Assembly (NCBI GenBank): GCA_017309275.1
Contig: JAFKLT010000052.1
Coordinates: 1-64,000 of the forward strand
Length of the DNA stretch: 64,000 bases
DNA from: Sphingomonadales bacterium
GTDB lineage: Bacteria > Pseudomonadota > Alphaproteobacteria > Sphingomonadales > Sphingomonadaceae
Direction of reading: 5' to 3'
Shown one piece after another: positions 6,004-27,369 of the stretch; position 1 is the first letter of the stretch; each line of letters starts with the position of its first letter. Both the position numbers and the translations under genes were made by a program. The notes under the pieces were generated by a model. That model ran no database searches and was not told the DNA's origin. It worked only from the letters and a program-made list of their open reading frames with translations.

Positions 6004-6017
6004 ATTTCCTTTCGCCT

Positions 6018-6031
6018 GTGATCAAGATCAT
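6018..6031. promoter_or_regulatory. FixK/FNR-like palindrome upstream of bufA
   Basis: GTGATCAAGATCAT matches the alphaproteobacterial FixK/FnrN box TTGATCNNGATCAA at 10 of its 12 defined positions, with only the outermost bases differing. It lies 92 bp before the bufferin precursor start and 15 bp after the preceding stop codon. I see no strong -10 at the distance expected for a class II FNR site, so regulation is an inference. Confidence 0.4.
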
Positions 6032-6066
6032 GCCAAAAGGTCTTCGGGTCGTGTGACAAAGCACCG

Positions 6067-6084
6067 GGGGCGACGATTCGCCCC
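6067..6084 (+). terminator. Hairpin ahead of the bufferin operon
   Basis: Perfect 7-bp stem GGGGCGA / TCGCCCC with a CGAT loop, followed by GCCTTTATC. It could terminate transcripts of the asparaginase-fold gene, or sit in the bufA leader, whose start codon is 39 bp downstream. The T-run is short. Confidence 0.45.
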
Positions 6085-6122
6085 GCCTTTATCTGGACAA
6101 CCATGGGAAGGGACGATCTGAC

Positions 6123-6431
6123 ATGAACACGAACAAACTCGCCGGCCTTATCGCCGCATCGGCGACCGCGCTGGCGCTGTCGAGCGCCGCAGTCGCCGCC
6201 GACAAGCCGCTGCCGAAACAGATCGGCGCGAACGACACCGTCAAATGCTATGGCGTCAACAGCTGCAAGGGCACCTCTGACTGCAAGGTCGAGGCCGCAT
6301 CGTGCAGCGGCGATTCGGGCTGCAGCACGCCGGGCAACAGCTGCGCCGGCGCGAACAGCTGCAAGGGCAAGGGTTACAAGAAAATCGCCGCAGGCAAGTG
6401 CCTGACCGACGGCGGCAAGATCGGCGTCTGA
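6123..6431 (+). CDS. bufA: Bufferin-type Cys-rich secreted precursor (BufA2-like)
   Basis: A 102-residue protein with a Sec signal peptide (MNTNKLAGLIAASATALALS, cleavage likely after AAVA at about residue 25). The mature part of ~76 residues contains eight cysteines at 42, 48, 54, 61, 67, 74, 80 and 93, mostly six or seven apart, in NSCKG and KCYGV-like contexts. The directly following DUF692 and DUF2063 genes define it as a bufferin-type RiPP precursor: in characterised members, the DUF692 enzyme converts Cys residues to heterocycles and the exported product binds copper. The NSCKGKG and KCYGVNSCKG contexts suggest the BufA2 rather than the DUF2282 (BufA1) subgroup; that subgroup call is from memory. 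AGGGA precedes the ATG by about ten bases. Metal bound and modification pattern are unknown here. Confidence 0.85.
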   Translation: MNTNKLAGLIAASATALALSSAAVAADKPLPKQIGANDTVKCYGVNSCKGTSDCKVEAASCSGDSGCSTPGNSCAGANSCKGKGYKKIAAGKCLTDGGKIGV

Positions 6432-6438
6432 TCGATTC

Positions 6439-6465
6439 GAGGGTCCGGTCGCTGGCCGGACCCTC
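6439..6465 (+). promoter_or_regulatory. Intercistronic stem-loop between bufA and bufB
   Basis: Perfect 10-bp stem GAGGGTCCGG / CCGGACCCTC with a seven-base loop (TCGCTGG), starting seven bases after the precursor stop codon. There is no U-tract. The position suits a 3'-stabilising or partial-termination element that would give more precursor than enzyme. Confidence 0.65.
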
Positions 6466-6488
6466 CATTCGCCGGACGGATCGGGCGC

Positions 6489-7334
6489 ATGACGCAAAAC
6501 ATGACAATGGCTTCGCCGGGCTTCGGTCTCGGCCTGCGCCCCGACCATTATCGCGACTTTCTGGCCGGACCGCAGCCGGTCGACTGGCTCGAGATCATTT
6601 CCGAAAATTACATGGTCCCTGGCGGCAAGCCGCTGGCGATGCTCGATGCGATCCGCGCCGACTATCCGATGGTCATGCACGGCGTGTCGCTGTCGATCGG
6701 TTCGGACGAACCGCTCGACATGGACTATCTGGAACAGCTCCGCGCCCTCGAACGGCGCGTCGAGCCGCTGTGGATTTCCGACCATCTCTGCTGGACGGGG
6801 ATCAACGCGCACAACACGCACGACCTGCTGCCCTTGCCCTATGATGCCCCGGCGCTCGATTGCGTCGTCGGCAATATCGGCCGGGTACAGGATTTCCTCG
6901 GCCGCCGCATCCTGATCGAAAATCCGTCGAGCTATGTCACCTTTCGTTCATCGGATCGCAGCGAGTGGGACTTTCTGGCCGAAATGGCGGAGCGCGCCGA
7001 TTGCCTGCTGCTGCTCGACGTCAACAATATCTACGTCAGCGCGCGCAACCACGGCTTCGATCCCCTCGACTATCTCGCCGGACTTCCCGCCGGGCGCATC
7101 CAGCAGATCCATCTGGCTGGGCACAGCGACATGGGCGACTATGTCATCGACACCCACGACGCGGCGGTCTGCGACGCGGTGTGGGACCTTTATGCCACGG
7201 CGATCGGCATGTTCGGCCCCGTCGCGACGATGATCGAACGCGACGACGACATCCCGCCGCTCGCCGAGGTGATCGCCGAGCTCGACCGGGCGCGGGCGCT
7301 AGCCGGGCGCGCGCTGGAGCCCGCCCATGCCTGA
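6489..7334 (+). CDS. bufB: DUF692 (MNIO family) multinuclear iron oxygenase
   Basis: A 281-residue TIM-barrel protein of the UPF0276/DUF692 family, now called MNIO, whose members carry two or three irons and oxidatively modify cysteines of peptide precursors. Likely iron ligands are visible in order: His64 (MVMHGVSLS), His99 (ISDHLCW), Glu144 (ILIENPSSY), Asp177 ([10 protein letters not shown]), His188, His208 and His212 (QIHLAGHSD), Asp221/His223 (DTHDAAV) and Glu250 (IERDDDIP). Length and motif order are normal. The gene follows the Cys-rich precursor by 57 bp and overlaps the DUF2063 gene by eight bases, which makes the precursor its obvious substrate. Expected to act in the cytoplasm before export. 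Confidence 0.93.
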
Positions 7335-8115
7335 GGCGCTGCGCGAAGTTCAGCAACGCTTCCTTTCCGGGATCATCGGCGGGGATGCCGGGGCCGAGGC
7401 GCTGATCGTCGATGACGAACGCGTCGGCGCGCGCCAGCGGCTCGACATCTATCGCAACAATTATCGCGCCAGCCTCGTCGGTGTCCTCTCCGACCATTTC
7501 GAACGGCTGCACGCCTATCTGGGCGACGAGCAGTTCGACAATGTGGCCGGAGCGTATGTCGCCGCGCATCCCTCGGCGACGCGCAACCTTCGCTATTATG
7601 GCGACGTGTTTCCCGCCTTCCTGGCCCAGCATTTTCCGGGCGACGGCGAACTGGCGGAGCTGGCGCAGCTCGACTGGGCGCTGCGTTCGGCCTTCGACGC
7701 GCCCGACATCCCGTTGCTCGACGCCGCCGCGGTCGGCGCGCTCGGCGACGCGTGGATCGAACGCCGGCTGGCGCTCCATCCCTCGGCTTCGCTGATCGCC
7801 GTCCGGTTCAACGTCGCAACGCTGTGGAGCGCGCTCGACGCCGAGGAGGAACCGCCCGAACCGGTCGAATTCGCCGCGCCGGTGACGCTGCTCGTATGGC
7901 GCAGCGGCCAGCAGCCCCATTTCCGCAGTCTTTCTCCGGCCGAAGCCGATGCGCTGGCGCAGATCGAGGCGGGAGCGAGCTTCACCGACCTCAGCGCCCA
8001 TCTGATCGACCATGTGGGCGAGGCGGCGGCGATGGAGGAGCTGGCGGCCTGGCTGGGCCAGTGGCTGGCCGACGGCCTGCTCGTCCTGGCCGATCAGCCC
8101 TTTGCCGTCACCTGA
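7327..8115 (+). CDS. bufC: DUF2063 putative precursor-recognition partner of the MNIO enzyme
   Basis: A 262-residue protein whose first ~95 residues match DUF2063 ('putative DNA-binding domain'): [30 protein letters not shown] and a [16 protein letters not shown] block. In MNIO systems this partner binds the precursor and presents it to the DUF692 enzyme; DNA binding is not supported. The C-terminal half ([14 protein letters not shown], ending [10 protein letters not shown]) is a less conserved winged-helix-like region typical of the family. It overlaps bufB by eight bases. No DoxX-type membrane gene (bufD) follows; instead the 3' end overlaps the convergent desaturase gene by 22 bp. Confidence 0.9.
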
Positions 8116-20952: not shown

Positions 20953-22050
20953 ATGAAGAGCTTGAAAACCCTTGTAATCGCAGCGGCTTTGTCGCTTGGC
21001 GCGGTGGGCACCGCGCATGCGGCGGCACCCGCTGCGGCCCCGGCGACCGCCACGGCGGCGACTCCGGCTGCGGAAGCGCCCGACGCGGCCGCGACCGCCG
21101 CTGCGCCGGCTCCGGCAGAGGCGACGAAGGCAGCGGTGCCCGCGGGCGACGCGACTTATGTCCCGATGAAGCCGACCCCGGGCATCGGTCAGCCGATCGA
21201 CGCGGGTATCGATTTTCAGCCGCAGGTGACGCCGATCGGCCAGCAGGCCTATTGGTTCAACCATGTGCTGCTGCTGCCGATCATCACGATCATCTCGCTC
21301 TTCGTCCTCGGCCTGCTGCTGTGGGTGATCGTCCGCTACCGCGCGAAAGCGAACCCGGTGCCGTCGAAGACGACGCACAACACGCTTATCGAAGTGCTGT
21401 GGACCGCCATCCCTGTCCTGATCCTCGCAGTCGTCGCGGTTCCCTCGATCCGCCTGCTCGCGGCGCAGTATGAACCGCCGAAGAAGGACGCGCTGACGAT
21501 CAAGGTCACGGGCTATCAGTGGTATTGGGGCTATGCCTATCCCGACCAGGGCATCGGCGAATATGTCTCGAAGATCCTGCCGGAAGACAAGGCTAAGGCT
21601 GCCGGCGAACCCTATCACCTCGCGGTCGACAACCGCATGGTCGTTCCCGTCGGCCGCCAGGTGAAGCTGATCATCACCGGTGCCGACGTGATCCACAGCT
21701 TCGCGGTTCCCGCCTTCTGGACCAAGATGGACGCGGTCCCCGGCCGTGCCAACGAGACGACGTTCACGCCGATGAAGGTTGGCGTCTATTACGGCCAGTG
21801 CTCGGAACTTTGCGGCGTCGATCACGGCTATATGCCGATCGCGGTCGAAGTTCTCCCGGTCGACAAGTGGGAAGCCTGGGTCCGCTCGAAGGGCGGCAAC
21901 CCCAATCCCGCGCCGGCGGCTCCCGCCGCTGCGGCGCCGGCCGCCGCGCCTGCTGCGGCTCCCGCTGCCGCTCCGGCCACGCCGGCTGCCGCCACGACCG
22001 AAGCAGCACCGGCTGCGGCTCCCGAAGCCGCACCGGCCGCCAAGAAATAA
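20953..22050 (+). CDS. ctaC: Cytochrome c oxidase subunit II
   Basis: A 365-residue CuA-bearing subunit of the aa3-type terminal oxidase. It has a Sec signal peptide (to about AHA, residue 23), an Ala/Pro/Thr-rich stretch to ~65, two transmembrane helices, and the periplasmic cupredoxin domain with YQWYWGYAYPD and the CuA site CSELCGVDHGYM; the upstream His ligand is in DVIHSFAVP. After the conserved domain come ~50 residues of Ala-Pro repeats ending in KK. The two low-complexity ends are longer than in most homologues. ctaD follows after 18 bp. Confidence 0.97.
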   Translation: MKSLKTLVIAAALSLGAVGTAHAAAPAAAPATATAATPAAEAPDAAATAAAPAPAEATKAAVPAGDATYVPMKPTPGIGQPIDAGIDFQPQVTPIGQQAYWFNHVLLLPIITIISLFVLGLLLWVIVRYRAKANPVPSKTTHNTLIEVLWTAIPVLILAVVAVPSIRLLAAQYEPPKKDALTIKVTGYQWYWGYAYPDQGIGEYVSKILPEDKAKAAGEPYHLAVDNRMVVPVGRQVKLIITGADVIHSFAVPAFWTKMDAVPGRANETTFTPMKVGVYYGQCSELCGVDHGYMPIAVEVLPVDKWEAWVRSKGGNPNPAPAAPAAAAPAAAPAAAPAAAPATPAAATTEAAPAAAPEAAPAAKK

Positions 22051-22068
22051 TATTAGGGGCTTCCACAG

Positions 22069-23712
22069 ATGACCGACACTCATGCGCACGATCATGGTCA
22101 TGATCATGATACGCCCGGCTTTTTCGTTCGTTGGTTCATGTCGACGAACCATAAGGACATCGGCACCCTCTACCTGATCTTCGCGATCATCGCCGGCATC
22201 GTCGGCGGCGCGATTTCGGGCATGATGCGTCTCGAACTCGCCGAACCCGGTATCCAGTATCTGCCCGGCTGGGCTTCGATGCTGGGCAGCGGCGCCGACG
22301 AGGTCGCGGGCAAGCACCTCTGGAACGTGCTGATTACCGCGCACGGCCTGATCATGGTCTTCTTCATGGTCATGCCCGCGATGATCGGCGGCTTCGGCAA
22401 CTGGTTCGTGCCGCTGATGATCGGCGCGCCCGACATGGCGTTCCCGCGCATGAACAACGTCTCCTTCTGGCTGACCGCGGTCGCGTTCGTCATGCTGGTG
22501 GGGTCGAGCTTCGTGCCCGGCGGCAGCGGCCATGGCGCCGGTACCGGCTGGACGGTCTATGCCCCGCTGTCGACCAGCGGGTCGGTCGGCCCGGCGGTCG
22601 ACATGGCGATCTTTTCGCTCCACCTCGCGGGTGCGGCATCGATCCTGGGTGCGATCAACTTCATCACCACCATCTTCAACATGCGCGCGCCGGGCATGAC
22701 CCTGCACAAGATGCCGCTGTTCGTGTGGTCGGTGCTGGTTACTGCCTTCCTGCTGTTGCTCGCGCTGCCGGTTCTGGCTGCGGCAATCACCATGCTGCTG
22801 ACCGACCGTAACTTCGGCACCACCTTCTATGATGCGACGGGCGGCGGCGATCCGGTGCTCTATCAGCATCTCTTCTGGTTCTTCGGGCACCCCGAAGTGT
22901 ACATCATGATCCTGCCGGGCTTCGGCATCGTCAGCCAGATCATCTCGACCTTCAGCCGCAAGCCGGTGTTCGGTTATCTGGGCATGGCCTATGCCATGGT
23001 CGCGATCGGCGTCGTCGGCTTCATCGTGTGGGCGCACCACATGTTCACCGTCGGCATGAGCGTGAACCTGAAGATGTATTTCACCGCCGCGACGATGGTC
23101 ATCGCCGTCCCGACGGGCATCAAGATCTTCAGCTGGATCGCCACGATGTGGGGCGGTTCGATGAGCTTCAAGACCCCGATGGTCTGGGCGCTCGGCTTCA
23201 TCTTCATGTTCACCGTCGGTGGCGTCACGGGCGTCGTGCTCGCCAATGGCGGCGTCGACACCAACCTGCACGACACCTATTATGTCGTCGCGCACTTCCA
23301 CTATGTGCTGTCGCTGGGCGCGGTCTTCTCGCTCTTCGCGGGCTTCTATTACTGGTTCCCGAAGATGTCGGGCCGGATGTACAGCGAAGTCCTGGGCCAG
23401 CTGCACTTCTGGATATTCTTCATCGGCGTGAACGTCATGTTCTTCCCCCAGCACTTCCTGGGTCAGCAGGGCATGCCGCGCCGTTATCCGGACTATGCGG
23501 AAGCCTATGCCTATTGGCACCACATCTCGTCGCTCGGCTATGTGATCATGGCCGTGGGCATGATCTTCTTCTTCGTGAACATCCTGTATTCGCTGTTCGC
23601 GGGCAAGAAGGCGGCCGACAATCCGTGGGGCGAAGGCGCAACGACGCTCGAATGGACGCTGTCGAGCCCGCCGCCGTTCCACCAGTTCAACGAACTGCCG
23701 CGTATCGCCTGA
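22069..23712 (+). CDS. ctaD: Cytochrome c oxidase subunit I
   Basis: A 547-residue catalytic subunit with twelve transmembrane helices, binding heme a and the heme a3-CuB site. The short N-terminus is His-rich ([11 protein letters not shown]). [16 protein letters not shown] opens the conserved part; [17 protein letters not shown] carries the CuB His and the His-Tyr crosslink region, [10 protein letters not shown] supplies two further CuB histidines, and [15 protein letters not shown] the heme ligands. A-type oxidase features are complete, so it should pump protons. Confidence 0.98.
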
Positions 23713-23719
23713 CACGTTT

Positions 23720-23750
23720 CGCCCCCTGCTGAGAGCCTTGGCAGGGGGCG
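23720..23750 (+). promoter_or_regulatory. Intercistronic stem-loop between ctaD and ctaB
   Basis: Perfect 10-bp stem CGCCCCCTGC / GCAGGGGGCG with an eleven-base loop, eight bases after the ctaD stop. No U-tract follows, so it is more likely an mRNA-stability or processing element, or a weak terminator, that sets structural subunit genes apart from assembly genes. Confidence 0.65.
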
Positions 23751-23774
23751 ATAGCGTTCCGGCCTGGAGTAAGC

Positions 23775-24686
23775 ATGGCGCAGAGCCTGACCCATGGCGA
23801 AACGGCGCTTCCCGCCGACTGGCGCGACCTGTTCGCGCTGACCAAGCCGCGCGTGATGTCGCTGGTCGTCTTTACGGCGCTGTGCGGTCTGCTCGCGGCG
23901 CCGGGGAACGTTCATCCGGTACTTGCCTTCTCGTCGATCCTCGCAATCGCACTGGGGGCAGGGGCTTCGGGCGCACTCAACCAATGGTATGAGGCTGGCC
24001 TCGATGCCAAGATGAAGCGGACGGCTGGTCGGCCGCTTCCCGCGGGGCGCCTCGATCCGCAGACCGCTCTGCAGTTCGGGGTCGGCCTGGCTGCCTTCTC
24101 GGTCTTTCTGATGCTGTTCGCCGCCAATTGGCAGGCCGCGGCGCTGCTGACCGTTTCGATCCTCTTCTATGTCTTCGTCTATACGATGTGGCTGAAGCCC
24201 CGGACTCCGCAGAACATCGTGATCGGCGGGGCCGCGGGTGCCTTTCCGCCGCTAATCGGATGGGTCGCCGCGACGGGCAGCGTCGCGCCGCTGCCGGTGC
24301 TGCTGTTCCTGCTGATCTTTCTGTGGACTCCGCCGCATTTCTGGGCGCTCGCGCTGTTCGTGCGGTCGGACTATGCGGCCGCGGGCATCCCGATGATGCC
24401 CGTCGTTGCGGGCGAGACGTCGACGCGCCGCCAGATTCTCTTCTATGCGCTGATCATGGCTGCAAGCGCGATCGCGCCCTGGCCGCTCGGCTATACCGGC
24501 GCGCTCTATGGCTGGGCGGCGGTGGTGCTGTCGGCCGTCTTTGTGCTGCTGTCCGTACAGGTCGGAACGCGCCGGACGGGCGAGGGAGACGGGATGCGGC
24601 CCGAAAAGCGCCTGTTCGCCTATTCGATCGCCTATCTCTTCATTCTGTTCGGCGCAGTCGTCGCCGACCATTGGTGGCCCCTATGA
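23775..24686 (+). CDS. ctaB: Protoheme IX farnesyltransferase (heme O synthase)
   Basis: A 303-residue membrane prenyltransferase of the UbiA superfamily that converts heme b to heme o, the precursor of heme a for the oxidase encoded upstream. The polyprenyl-diphosphate site is in [20 protein letters not shown] (Asp-rich motif), and the conserved [14 protein letters not shown] and [11 protein letters not shown] blocks are present. About nine hydrophobic segments. Its stop overlaps the next ATG (ATGA). Confidence 0.97.
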
Positions 24687-24838
24687 CCGACGAAACACCC
24701 CCCGAACAGCCGCCCTTCGACGAAGCCGAATATCGCCGTCGCCAGCGCAGTCGCGCCAATCTGATGGGTTGGATACTGGGCGGGCTTGCCTTTCTTTTCT
24801 TCTTCATCACGATGGCGCGCATGGTAGTGCCCAAATGA
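24683..24838 (+). CDS. Small membrane protein of the oxidase assembly cluster (CoxF-like)
   Basis: A 51-residue protein with an acidic, Pro-rich N-terminus ([20 protein letters not shown]), a basic turn and one transmembrane helix ([19 protein letters not shown]). It overlaps ctaB by ATGA at its start and ctaG by ATGA at its end, which supports real translation. Position and shape match the short CoxF-type gene found between ctaB and ctaG in Alphaproteobacteria. No function has been established that I can state; it probably assists oxidase assembly. Confidence 0.85.
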
Positions 24839-25392
24839 AGACGATGTCGCGAAATGCGAAGACAGGCTCGCTCGCCGCGCTGCTCGCGGTCGCGATGGTT
24901 GGGCTCGGCTTCGCGGCGGTGCCGCTCTACAATCTCTTTTGCCGCGTGACCGGCTTCGGCGGTACGACCCAGCGTTACGACCCGGTCGCGGCAGCCGAGA
25001 CGCCGAAAATCCTGAGCGATACCATCTCGGTACGCTTCGACGCGAACGTGTCGCCCAAACTGCCGTGGAAATTCTATCCCGAGCATCCGACCGATACGGT
25101 CAGCATCGGCGCCCGCGACATGGCGATCTTTATCGCTCAGAATAATTCGTCCCATCCTGTCGTCGGAACCGCGAGCTTCAACGTGACGCCCGATGCCGCG
25201 GGCAAATATTTCACCAAGATTCAGTGCTTCTGTTTCACCGAACAACGGTTGGAGCCGGGGCAGCAGGTACGCATGCCGGTGCTGTTCTTCGTCGATCCCA
25301 AGATCATGGACGACCCCGACGCGCGCGACATCGAAGAAATCACCCTCAGCTACACCTTCCACCCTGTAGACGGGGACAAAAACGCGAGCTAA
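24835..25392 (+). CDS. ctaG: Cytochrome c oxidase assembly protein CtaG/Cox11
   Basis: A 185-residue copper chaperone that delivers Cu to the CuB site of subunit I. One N-terminal helix anchors it, and the periplasmic domain has the Cu-binding CFCF pair in KIQCFCFTEQ and the conserved AAVPLYNLFCRVTGFGGTT. The start at MKTMSRNAK overlaps the small upstream gene by ATGA. Length is as expected. Confidence 0.97.
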   Translation: MKTMSRNAKTGSLAALLAVAMVGLGFAAVPLYNLFCRVTGFGGTTQRYDPVAAAETPKILSDTISVRFDANVSPKLPWKFYPEHPTDTVSIGARDMAIFIAQNNSSHPVVGTASFNVTPDAAGKYFTKIQCFCFTEQRLEPGQQVRMPVLFFVDPKIMDDPDARDIEEITLSYTFHPVDGDKNAS

Positions 25393-25472
25393 GGCCGCAT
25401 CCAAAGAGTCTTACCAAGGACCGGCGGGTGATGGGGAATCGCCACGCTGGGGCAAAAAACGGGAACTGTGAC

Positions 25473-26348
25473 ATGGCCGGTGCCAAACATCATGACTATC
25501 ACCTCGTAAATCCCAGCGTCTGGCCGCTCATCGGGTCGGTCGCGGCGCTGGTGATGTTCTTCGGCCTCGTCATGGCGATGCATGCCGACTATTTCGGCGG
25601 CGCCGGCAAATGGGTTCTGGGCCTCGGTTTCATGGGCGTGATCGCCACCTTCTTCAGCTGGTGGTCGGACGTCATCAACGAAGCGCACGCCGGCGACCAT
25701 ACCCCGGTCGTCCAGCTTCACCTGCGCTATGGCATGATCCTGTTCATCGCGTCGGAAGTGATGTTCTTCGTCGGCTGGTTCTGGGCGTGGTTCGACTTCT
25801 CGCTGTTCCCGGTCCCTGTCGAGATCGTCGACGGCGCGGTTACCTCGCTCTTCGGTCAGGACGGCGCCGCCGCCGCGACCATCTGGCCGCCCAAGGGCAT
25901 CCATGTCATCGACGCCTTCTCGCTGCCGCTGCTCAACACGCTGATCCTGCTTTGCTCGGGCACGACGATCACCTGGGCGCACCACGCGCTCATCCACGGC
26001 GATCGTGAAGGCCTGAAGAAGGGTTTGTGGGCCACGATCCTGCTCGGCATGCTGTTCACGTCGATCCAGGCGTATGAATATGCGGAAGCGCCGTTCAACT
26101 TTGGCCAGATCAACTATTCGTCGGCCTTCTTCATGGCGACCGGCTTCCACGGCTTCCATGTCCTCGTCGGCACGATCTTCCTGATCGTCTGCCTGGTTCG
26201 TACCTACAAGGGCCATTTCACACCGACCCAGCATTTCGGTTTCGAAGCGGCTGCATGGTACTGGCACTTCGTCGACGTGGTGTGGCTGTTCCTCTTCATC
26301 ATCATCTATGTCTGGGGCGGCTGGGGCGCACCTGTCGCCGCACACTAA
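25473..26348 (+). CDS. ctaE: Cytochrome c oxidase subunit III
   Basis: A 291-residue seven-helix subunit. Family signatures are HDYHLVNPSVWPLIGS, RYGMILFIASEVMFFVGWFW with the carboxylate helix, TITWAHHALIHGDR and FHGFHVLVGTIFL, ending FVDVVWLFLFIIIYVWGGWG. The ATG of MAGAKHHDYH is chosen by similarity to the family; an in-frame ATG at 25431 would add 14 unconserved residues. About 80 bp separate it from ctaG. Confidence 0.97.
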   Translation: MAGAKHHDYHLVNPSVWPLIGSVAALVMFFGLVMAMHADYFGGAGKWVLGLGFMGVIATFFSWWSDVINEAHAGDHTPVVQLHLRYGMILFIASEVMFFVGWFWAWFDFSLFPVPVEIVDGAVTSLFGQDGAAAATIWPPKGIHVIDAFSLPLLNTLILLCSGTTITWAHHALIHGDREGLKKGLWATILLGMLFTSIQAYEYAEAPFNFGQINYSSAFFMATGFHGFHVLVGTIFLIVCLVRTYKGHFTPTQHFGFEAAAWYWHFVDVVWLFLFIIIYVWGGWGAPVAAH

Positions 26349-26735
26349 GTGACGGAACAAGAGCAGAAACAAAAAGGGCAGCCGCCGGTCTGGCGCGCTG
26401 CCTTTTTTGCGACCTGTCCGGAGTGCGGGGCGCCGGGACTGTTCGAGCGCGGCGTGACGTTTCGCGATCGCTGCACCGCATGCGGGCTCGACTTCGGCCG
26501 CTATAATGTCGGCGACGGCCCGGCGGCTTTCCTGACCCTGATCGTCGGCGCGCTGCTGATCGCACTCGCACTGGGCCTCGATTCCGCCTTTAGCCCGCCG
26601 CTGTGGGTTCATGTCGTGCTGTGGGTGCCGCTCACCATCGCGGCCGTCGTCTATGGCCTCCGCCTCGGCAAGGCGGCGCTGCTCGCCAGCGAGCATCAGC
26701 GACAGGCAGCCGAAGGAAAGTTGAGCGATGAGTGA
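26349..26735 (+). CDS. DUF983 zinc-ribbon membrane protein
   Basis: A 128-residue protein of the DUF983 family. Two CxxC pairs, ATCPECGAPGLFE and CTACGLDF, form a likely zinc ribbon, followed by two transmembrane helices (~residues 57-105). It starts with GTG immediately after the ctaE stop codon and overlaps the SURF1 gene by eight bases. Its constant position in alphaproteobacterial oxidase operons suggests a role in oxidase biogenesis, which is an inference. Confidence 0.9.
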   Translation: MTEQEQKQKGQPPVWRAAFFATCPECGAPGLFERGVTFRDRCTACGLDFGRYNVGDGPAAFLTLIVGALLIALALGLDSAFSPPLWVHVVLWVPLTIAAVVYGLRLGKAALLASEHQRQAAEGKLSDE

Positions 26736-27369
26736 AGCTGGCAAACCTCTCCGCCGCTGGCCTGTCCTGCCGACGATCGTCGTCCTTGCTGCCGTTGCGG
26801 TGATGATCGCGCTCGGCGTCTGGCAGCTTCAGCGCAAGGCTGAGAAGGAAGCGCTGATCGCGCTTTATGAACGCAATATGGCGATGTCGTCGCTCGTCAC
26901 CTATCCCAAGCTGCCACCGGTTCCCGACGCGATGCTGTTTCGCAAGAGCAGCGTGGTCTGCCTGGAGGTCGTGCGCTGGGATCCGCGGGGCGGCACCGAT
27001 CGCAAGGGCGCGTCGGGGATACGGATGATCGCCGATTGCCGCACCGGTGCCGAGGGGCCGGGCGTGCTGGTCGACGTCGGAATAGCGGAGGATTTCACTC
27101 CGCCCAAATGGACGGGCGGCACGGTGCAGGGGACGATCGTGCCAGGCCCCGAACAGCCCTCGGTGATCGAGCGGCTGACGGGCAGGGCAAAGCCGGCGCG
27201 TGCGATGCTCGTCGCCGATGTAGCTGTTGCCGGCCTTCGCGCCAGCGAGGTACCGTCGGGCGCGGACGTGCCGAACAACCATCTCGCTTATGCGTTCCAG
27301 TGGTTCTTCTTCGCGGTTGTCGCGTTGATTATCTATGTCCTGGCGGTGCGCCGCCGCTTGCAGCCGTGA
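26728..27369 (+). CDS. SURF1-family oxidase assembly protein
   Basis: A 213-residue protein with the SURF1 topology: an N-terminal helix (PTIVVLAAVAVMIALGVWQL), a periplasmic domain and a C-terminal helix (QWFFFAVVALIIYVLAV). The hallmark LGVWQLQRKAEKEAL at the end of helix 1 and NNHLAYAFQWFFFA before helix 2 are both present. SURF1 binds heme a and helps insert it into subunit I. It lies between DUF983 and thrC, all in one direction. Confidence 0.94.
   Translation: MSEAGKPLRRWPVLPTIVVLAAVAVMIALGVWQLQRKAEKEALIALYERNMAMSSLVTYPKLPPVPDAMLFRKSSVVCLEVVRWDPRGGTDRKGASGIRMIADCRTGAEGPGVLVDVGIAEDFTPPKWTGGTVQGTIVPGPEQPSVIERLTGRAKPARAMLVADVAVAGLRASEVPSGADVPNNHLAYAFQWFFFAVVALIIYVLAVRRRLQP

Follow-up and report, generated by a model that had tools for sequence, protein, structure and literature searches.

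Bufferins are widespread, and two questions about them are of interest: how the sequence of a precursor sets the number of its modified sites, and whether these peptides also act beyond defense against stress. A Sec signal peptide is a family trait (PMC12452194). According to the same work, Buf2 precursors possess six conserved cysteines in 90% of the cases and twelve in the rest, tandem precursor genes occur, and in Buf1 peptides the central cysteines are the targets of modification, with the first and the last cysteine forming a disulfide. The Buf1-type operons of Caulobacter (CC3254-3257 and CC2907-2905) encode DUF2282 precursors under the control of SigF, whose site has been described as GTAACC-N16-CGAA, and starts have been mapped upstream of two operons of the order DUF2282-DUF692-DUF2063 (PMC3511200). 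Thiooxazoles have been shown in the captophorins (fontiphorin, oxazolin and gonophorin), and the characterized MNIO-PME1 cases are all described as installing 5-thiooxazoles, with products that generally bind copper (PMC12668002).

Here we analyze a bufABC operon from a strain that most likely belongs to the genus Sphingopyxis. It lies in a 64,000-nucleotide stretch of contig JAFKLT010000052.1, which is called the window in the following. By its profile matches the operon is of an already known kind, the Buf2 bufferins: it resembles Buf2/BufA2 (NF050166; PMC12452194) in a putative signal peptide recognized by eye, in six conserved cysteines with the spacing 6-6-7-6-13, in its Cys-Lys(-Gly) motifs and in an MNIO and a DUF2063 partner encoded downstream of the precursor. 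Unlike the six or twelve cysteines described there, the window precursor has eight, due to an extra unit of 13 residues, and unlike the canonical sphingomonad relatives its bufA gene has a promoter of another type. Twelve-cysteine Buf2 precursors (three of 80 distinct precursors) also gain cysteines through repetition, but there the whole six-cysteine domain is doubled, whereas the window precursor adds one two-cysteine unit inside a single domain. With the Caulobacter operons the window shares the order precursor-MNIO-DUF2063 and, presumably, export of the peptide; in contrast to them its precursor is a BufA2, and a SigF site, a SigF match and a DoxX gene are all missing. The captophorins are similar in combining an MNIO and a DUF2063 partner (with an RRE there and a candidate RRE here) with many cysteine sites per peptide, and thiooxazoles would be expected for the window BufA as well. 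Their repeats are EGKCG pentamers of the Lys-Cys type, though, and their MNIO has Phe and not Asp after the catalytic Asp (PMC12668002).

The bufABC operon and its chromosomal site

The three genes are intact frames arranged head-to-tail on the plus strand and form one compact operon with the boundaries proposed in the initial annotation (Table 1). As bufA and bufB score above the NCBIfam cut-offs for BufA2 and BufB and bufC carries DUF2063, all with scores well outside chance expectation, the assignment to a bufferin-type operon of a sphingomonad was correct. For the precursor, Pfam gave no DUF2282 (Buf1) match up to an E value of 1. The overlap of 8 bp noted there is located at 7327-7334, between bufB and bufC; bufA and bufB are 57 bp apart. 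The operon had also been described as a minimal set without DoxX, which is true for the contig, but such a layout is ordinary, the fon cluster likewise having three genes (PMC12668002). Other contigs of the genome carry four DoxX family matches, of which three are genes exceeding the cut-off and the fourth stays below it.

Table 1: Features of the bufABC operon, in positions of the window.
Feature	Position	Strand	Description
Palindrome TGTGATCAAGATCATG	6017..6032	+	part of the promoter region of bufA; by consensus similar to sites of the Crp/Fnr family
Second conserved block CGGGTCGTGTGA	6045..6056	+	candidate core promoter
bufA	6123..6431	+	eight-cysteine BufA2-type precursor, 102 aa; NF050166 77.4 bits (cut-off 60)
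Putative signal peptide of bufA	6123..6197	+	Sec-type, residues 1-25, cleavage AVA-A by eye
Extra two-cysteine unit	6288..6326	+	13 residues, 56-68 as aligned; register ambiguous
Hairpin	6439..6465	+	12 bp, GC, without T run; directly after the bufA stop, between bufA and bufB
bufB	6489..7334	+	MNIO (DUF692) bufferin maturase; NF050167 384 bits (cut-off 310), PF05114 363 bits
bufC	7327..8115	+	DUF2063 partner protein (PME type 1); PF09836 81.4 bits (cut-off 27.2)

bufB is the only MNIO gene and bufA the only BufA2 gene found in the genome. In the PDB, BufB hit a solved MNIO structure, 3bww, at E 6e-41, with weaker matches to 8hci and to structures of MbnB; a methanobactin-type (MbnB) enzyme was not indicated by TIGR04159, which gave 55.6 bits and is well under its cut-off of 325. 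The C-terminal part of BufC shows a weak match to NGO1945 (RRE; PF22106, 23.9 bits, below the cut-off of 27), and the protein reaches 53.7 bits against the NCBIfam HvfC model (below the cut-off of 142); its sequence had no PDB match up to an E value of 1. Convincing relatives of BufA were not found in the PDB, and the AlphaFold models of the eight-cysteine form (pLDDT 59.9, residues 62-72 below 50) and of the six-cysteine form (56.4) are too poor for a fold search. An Rfam scan of the window gave nothing at gathering scores, and nothing in a plasmid collection matched at E 1e-5. Some 14 kb away from bufABC, at 20953-27369, the translations resemble by eye components of an operon for a cytochrome oxidase of the aa3 type, which is a copper enzyme, with a CoxA-like frame with a His-rich start at 22069, a CtaB-like frame at 23775 and a Surf1-like frame at 26728.

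The window and 15 relatives share one chromosomal site with the order LysRS, asparaginase-like gene, one or two bufA genes, bufB, bufC, desaturase and GGDEF-EAL, as far as the pieces reach. A DUF3291 gene is present at 10 of the 15 loci with enough reach (window counted), the EAL gene of L058 is on the opposite strand, and the L067 sequence ends upstream of bufA. Judged by this gene order, the bufABC locus is stable in the genus.

An eight-cysteine paralogue in Sphingopyxis

The cysteines of BufA are located at positions 42, 48, 54, 61, 67, 74, 80 and 93, exactly as first read. From their six- and seven-residue spacing a metal specificity not known so far had been suggested, and this part of the annotation was not supported, because 6-6-7-6-13 or -14 is the norm of the BufA2 family (76 of 80 distinct precursors, 49 with the former and 27 with the latter); the spacing was accordingly also rejected as a novelty in itself. 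The remaining four are three twelve-cysteine double domains (L145, L149 and L151) and one 6-6-7-6-6 precursor (L125), a BufA2-like sequence below the cut-off which represents another repeat variant.

The N-terminus of BufA reads by eye as a basic start, a hydrophobic stretch and an AVA-A site. In a precursor alignment (A1) all six core cysteines are present and invariant, and they are split by the 13-residue unit, which is a gap in all 18 rows with a six-cysteine core and sits between conserved cysteines 3 and 4. As aligned, the window precursor is a canonical six-cysteine BufA2 plus exactly one unit of 13 residues with two cysteines. All 12 eight-cysteine precursors share the spacing 6-6-7-6-7-6-13, and those nearest to the window come from S. 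soli BL03 (94% identity) and Sphingopyxis sp. H073 (93%). A recent DNA duplication was considered as the origin of the unit and left no trace, only 17-20 of 39 bases being common between units.

BufA2 matches above the cut-off were found in 17 of the 80 genomes of the genus sample. Twelve of these 17 carry the eight-cysteine form, seven in tandem behind a six-cysteine copy and five, the window included, alone; the other five have a six-cysteine copy alone, one of them at a different locus. Outside the genus none of the 80 distinct precursors from 81 loci (L075-L155) has eight cysteines, in a census which needed the first five cysteines in near-family spacing and which had no match at two of the 81 loci (L126 and L127). 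A first search for relatives (L035-L054), with a spacing filter by which odd precursors could be dropped, showed the six-cysteine core throughout, with one 6-6-8-6-13 and two 6-6-7-6-14. In profile searches the eight-cysteine form appears as two overlapping (split) hits. BufA2 was above the cut-off in 88 of 397 genomes of a family sample, 21 of 385 of a class sample and 26 of 398 of a phylum sample, which overlap one another and cover part of the public sequence, and in these three samples the split hit marked the window's genome only; the twelve-cysteine pattern occurred in three genomes of the phylum sample. Thus, among the genomes sampled, the extra two-cysteine repeat is confined to Sphingopyxis. 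The literature matches listed contained nothing on an eight-cysteine Buf2 or on Sphingopyxis bufferins, and the one passage on eight cysteines in PMC12452194 concerns another group, adjamnio-I.

To look at the origin of the unit, a tree of 24 precursors was reconstructed with the unit left out. The eight-cysteine sequences form one clade with a support of 100 and need one state change, which makes a single gain of the unit most likely. In a tree of the flanking proteins the states of the six-cysteine gene need two changes and those of the eight-cysteine gene three, and eight-cysteine genes are found in both main groups, so that a tandem pair of paralogues followed by later losses is the simplest reading. 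The sequence of the junction directly 3' of the asparaginase-like stop is common to the window and L068 and different in L067; one loss of the six-cysteine gene could be common to the window and L068. The L067 junction and the trees of bufA and bufB, in which the window is closer to L056, L057 and L059, speak against one common loss, and separate losses or recombination are therefore possible.

Two promoter types, SigF and a hairpin

The two precursor forms also differ upstream. A SigF-type site, GTAAC[ACT]-N13-17-CGAA, lies within 140 bases upstream of 11 of the 12 six-cysteine genes (found with N15 or N16; L065 is without it) and within the same distance of none of the 12 eight-cysteine genes, window included. 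The palindrome TGTGAYCnAGATCATG shows the opposite distribution, being located upstream of all 12 eight-cysteine genes and of none of the 12 six-cysteine genes. In terms of these upstream motifs the six- and eight-cysteine precursors have different promoter types. The SigF-type site is also common beyond the genus: in other Sphingomonadaceae it precedes 20 of the 29 Buf2 genes whose upstream region was long enough (30 loci), compared to a mean of 0.02 in shuffles that kept base composition only. These sites belong to the Buf2 genes of L075-L104, yet PMC12452194 mentions sigma factor genes with Buf1 and not with Buf2 clusters. In the window's genome GTAACC-N15-CGAATA is found at one place, on another contig.

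The palindrome is invariant at 14 of 16 positions in the 12 eight-cysteine genomes, and its exact genus consensus, TGTGAYCNNGATCATG, matches the window's genome once, at the bufA promoter. The second block, CGGGTCGTGTGA, is invariant in 11 of 12 columns of the 12 aligned upstream regions and exact in 11 of them, L067 having A for the first C. As a yardstick, of the 98 fourfold sites that bufB has in these genomes, 28 do not vary; against this rate the binomial values are about 1.6e-6 for the 14 of 16 columns and about 9e-6 for the 11 of 12, and both flatter, since the blocks were selected with the alignment in view and the genomes are relatives of one another.

The palindrome resembles the CRP consensus TGTGA-N6-TCACA and, to a lesser degree, the FNR box. 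It is therefore conceivable that the eight-cysteine operon is under a Crp/Fnr-family regulator and responds to carbon or oxygen status and not to metal stress. Besides this resemblance and the invariance of the palindrome in all 12 genomes, the looser pattern TGTGATCNNGATCAYR occurs with up to one mismatch at 10 places of the genome (two of them exact, the other eight with a single mismatch), whereas the reversed control pattern has none. Nevertheless, we consider such a regulator somewhat unlikely, as similar palindromes are bound by other dimeric regulators and an inspection by eye of the open frames flanking the other nine sites gave no common theme, for which reason a palindrome regulon was rejected.

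A strain whose only bufferin promoter is free of SigF could dispense with this factor, and on this prediction we searched for SigF and NrsF. NrsF had no match in the window's genome and was matched in 61 of the 80 genus genomes, in 59 of them above the cut-off; all 16 other genomes with BufA2 are among the 61. The best SigF match has 29% identity in the window's genome and 79-100% in the other 16. As the query began 5' of the probable start of SigF, several of the latter matches run across a stop or set in further downstream. The completeness of the window's assembly is rated at 99.99%. By these searches the window's strain, alone of the 17, has no recognizable SigF or NrsF, and the six-cysteine copy is absent as well; the usual metal-stress switch appears to have been lost. 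As SigF and NrsF are kept in four of the five genomes having the eight-cysteine gene alone, and no BufA2 exceeds the cut-off in the 18 other genus genomes that lack NrsF, the losses of the six-cysteine gene and of SigF are not tightly linked. A strain with the SigF-free paralogue alone and without recognizable SigF or NrsF suggests that bufA is transcribed independently of SigF.

Two further arrangements of sigF were seen. At L055 (G015:C1:1203971-1206609) a six-cysteine Buf2 gene on the minus strand lies beside a weak match to the BufA2 profile and sigF and nrsF on the plus strand. At L187, L186 and L190 sigF and nrsF follow a frame that is DoxX-like by eye; the window's genome is without NrsF, a SigF orthologue and a second MNIO.

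That the operon is a decaying leftover, no longer usefully expressed without SigF, would agree with the missing SigF and NrsF matches, but appears very improbable to us: the three frames are intact, BufA is 94% identical to the S. soli copy, and the promoter blocks of the eight-cysteine genes are kept in the window, although these genomes do vary at fourfold sites.

In the 12 eight-cysteine operons the hairpin behind bufA has changes on both sides in five of its ten predicted pairs, and pairing of the outer three is lost in one to three of the sequences. With a simple stem finder and 200 shuffles, which preserved base composition only and not dinucleotides, 15 of the 16 syntenic operons passed (at most 6) and L057 failed (83 of 200); the control also failed for the stem of the non-syntenic L055 (130 of 200). 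The hairpin is no special feature of the window operon, an idea that was rejected because among 51 other precursors 30 show a stem that no more than 3 of 60 shuffles of the same kind could reach. It probably keeps the precursor mRNA above the enzyme mRNA and in this way would set the level of the precursor above that of the enzymes.

Modification, metal and possible function

BufB contains ERDD at residues 250-253, and this motif, with an Asp following the presumed catalytic Asp, is present in 16 of 16 syntenic BufB sequences. This is the type of the Cys-Lys MNIOs, in which Asp takes the place of the Phe that follows the catalytic residue in FonB (PMC12668002). In the window BufA the residue after the cysteine is Lys at Cys48, Cys54 and Cys80, Ser at Cys61 and Cys67 and Ala at Cys74, so that three to six thiooxazoles are possible. 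The chain of modified cysteine sites proposed for the product is plausible, with the eight sites being unlike one another.

As the two extra cysteines are mostly followed by Ser or Gly and not by Lys, BufB may skip them. It would then modify Cys48, Cys54 and Cys80 alone, and the extra pair would remain as thiols or a disulfide and provide a mixed-ligand metal site or only a spacer. This is doubtful, yet a serious possibility, since Ser or Gly follows Cys61 in 10 and Cys67 in 12 of the 12 eight-cysteine precursors and the Asp of BufB is the one that the published model pairs with Lys after Cys. On the other hand, both extra cysteines are conserved in 12 of 12 sequences, and the Lys-Cys enzyme FonB favors a small residue after Cys (PMC12668002), from which Ser or Gly need not block the reaction.

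We favor, with some confidence and short of certainty, a SigF-independent eight-cysteine Buf2 bufferin that most likely serves as a periplasmic Cu(I) buffer and is thiooxazole-modified by BufBC. In this model BufA would be synthesized with a Sec signal peptide and presented by BufC to BufB, which would turn central cysteines into 5-thiooxazoles with a loss of 4 H each, and the product would reach the periplasm, hold Cu(I) and lower free copper. The eight-cysteine paralogue would offer six central cysteines, compared to four in the canonical form, and thus probably bind more copper per peptide.

The data presented give no indication of any metal besides copper, nor do they exclude one. A product buffering another soft metal (gold, silver, mercury or cadmium) instead of copper seems improbable, although fusions of MerC with bufferins and a suspected link to gold have been reported (PMC12452194) and the promoter control is unlike that by SigF; the thiooxazole peptides characterized in the cited studies bind Cu(I), and the operon has the same asparaginase-like and desaturase genes as neighbors, as far as the pieces reach. 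Nor can each cluster of this kind be assumed to act in copper stress, as expression of the related mmr cluster of Microbulbifer was not detected under copper stress (PMC12538549).

The favored Cu(I) buffer might be part of a wider division of labor, in which a Sphingopyxis bufferin gene was duplicated, one copy acquired the two-cysteine unit along with a separate promoter, and the pair came to consist of a six-cysteine arm for metal stress under SigF and an eight-cysteine arm under Crp/Fnr-like control for energy or oxygen status, with both sharing BufBC. We regard this as unlikely and offer it tentatively. If true, the strain of the window would be without the stress arm, and bufferins would in addition take part in the everyday handling of copper in the periplasm, such as that for copper oxidases.

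The genus provides a natural experiment, with one maturase pair encoded at the same chromosomal site together with six-cysteine substrates, eight-cysteine substrates or both, and with two promoter types. With this, the site selection of Cys-Lys MNIOs, the copper stoichiometry and the SigF-independent use of bufferins become directly testable.
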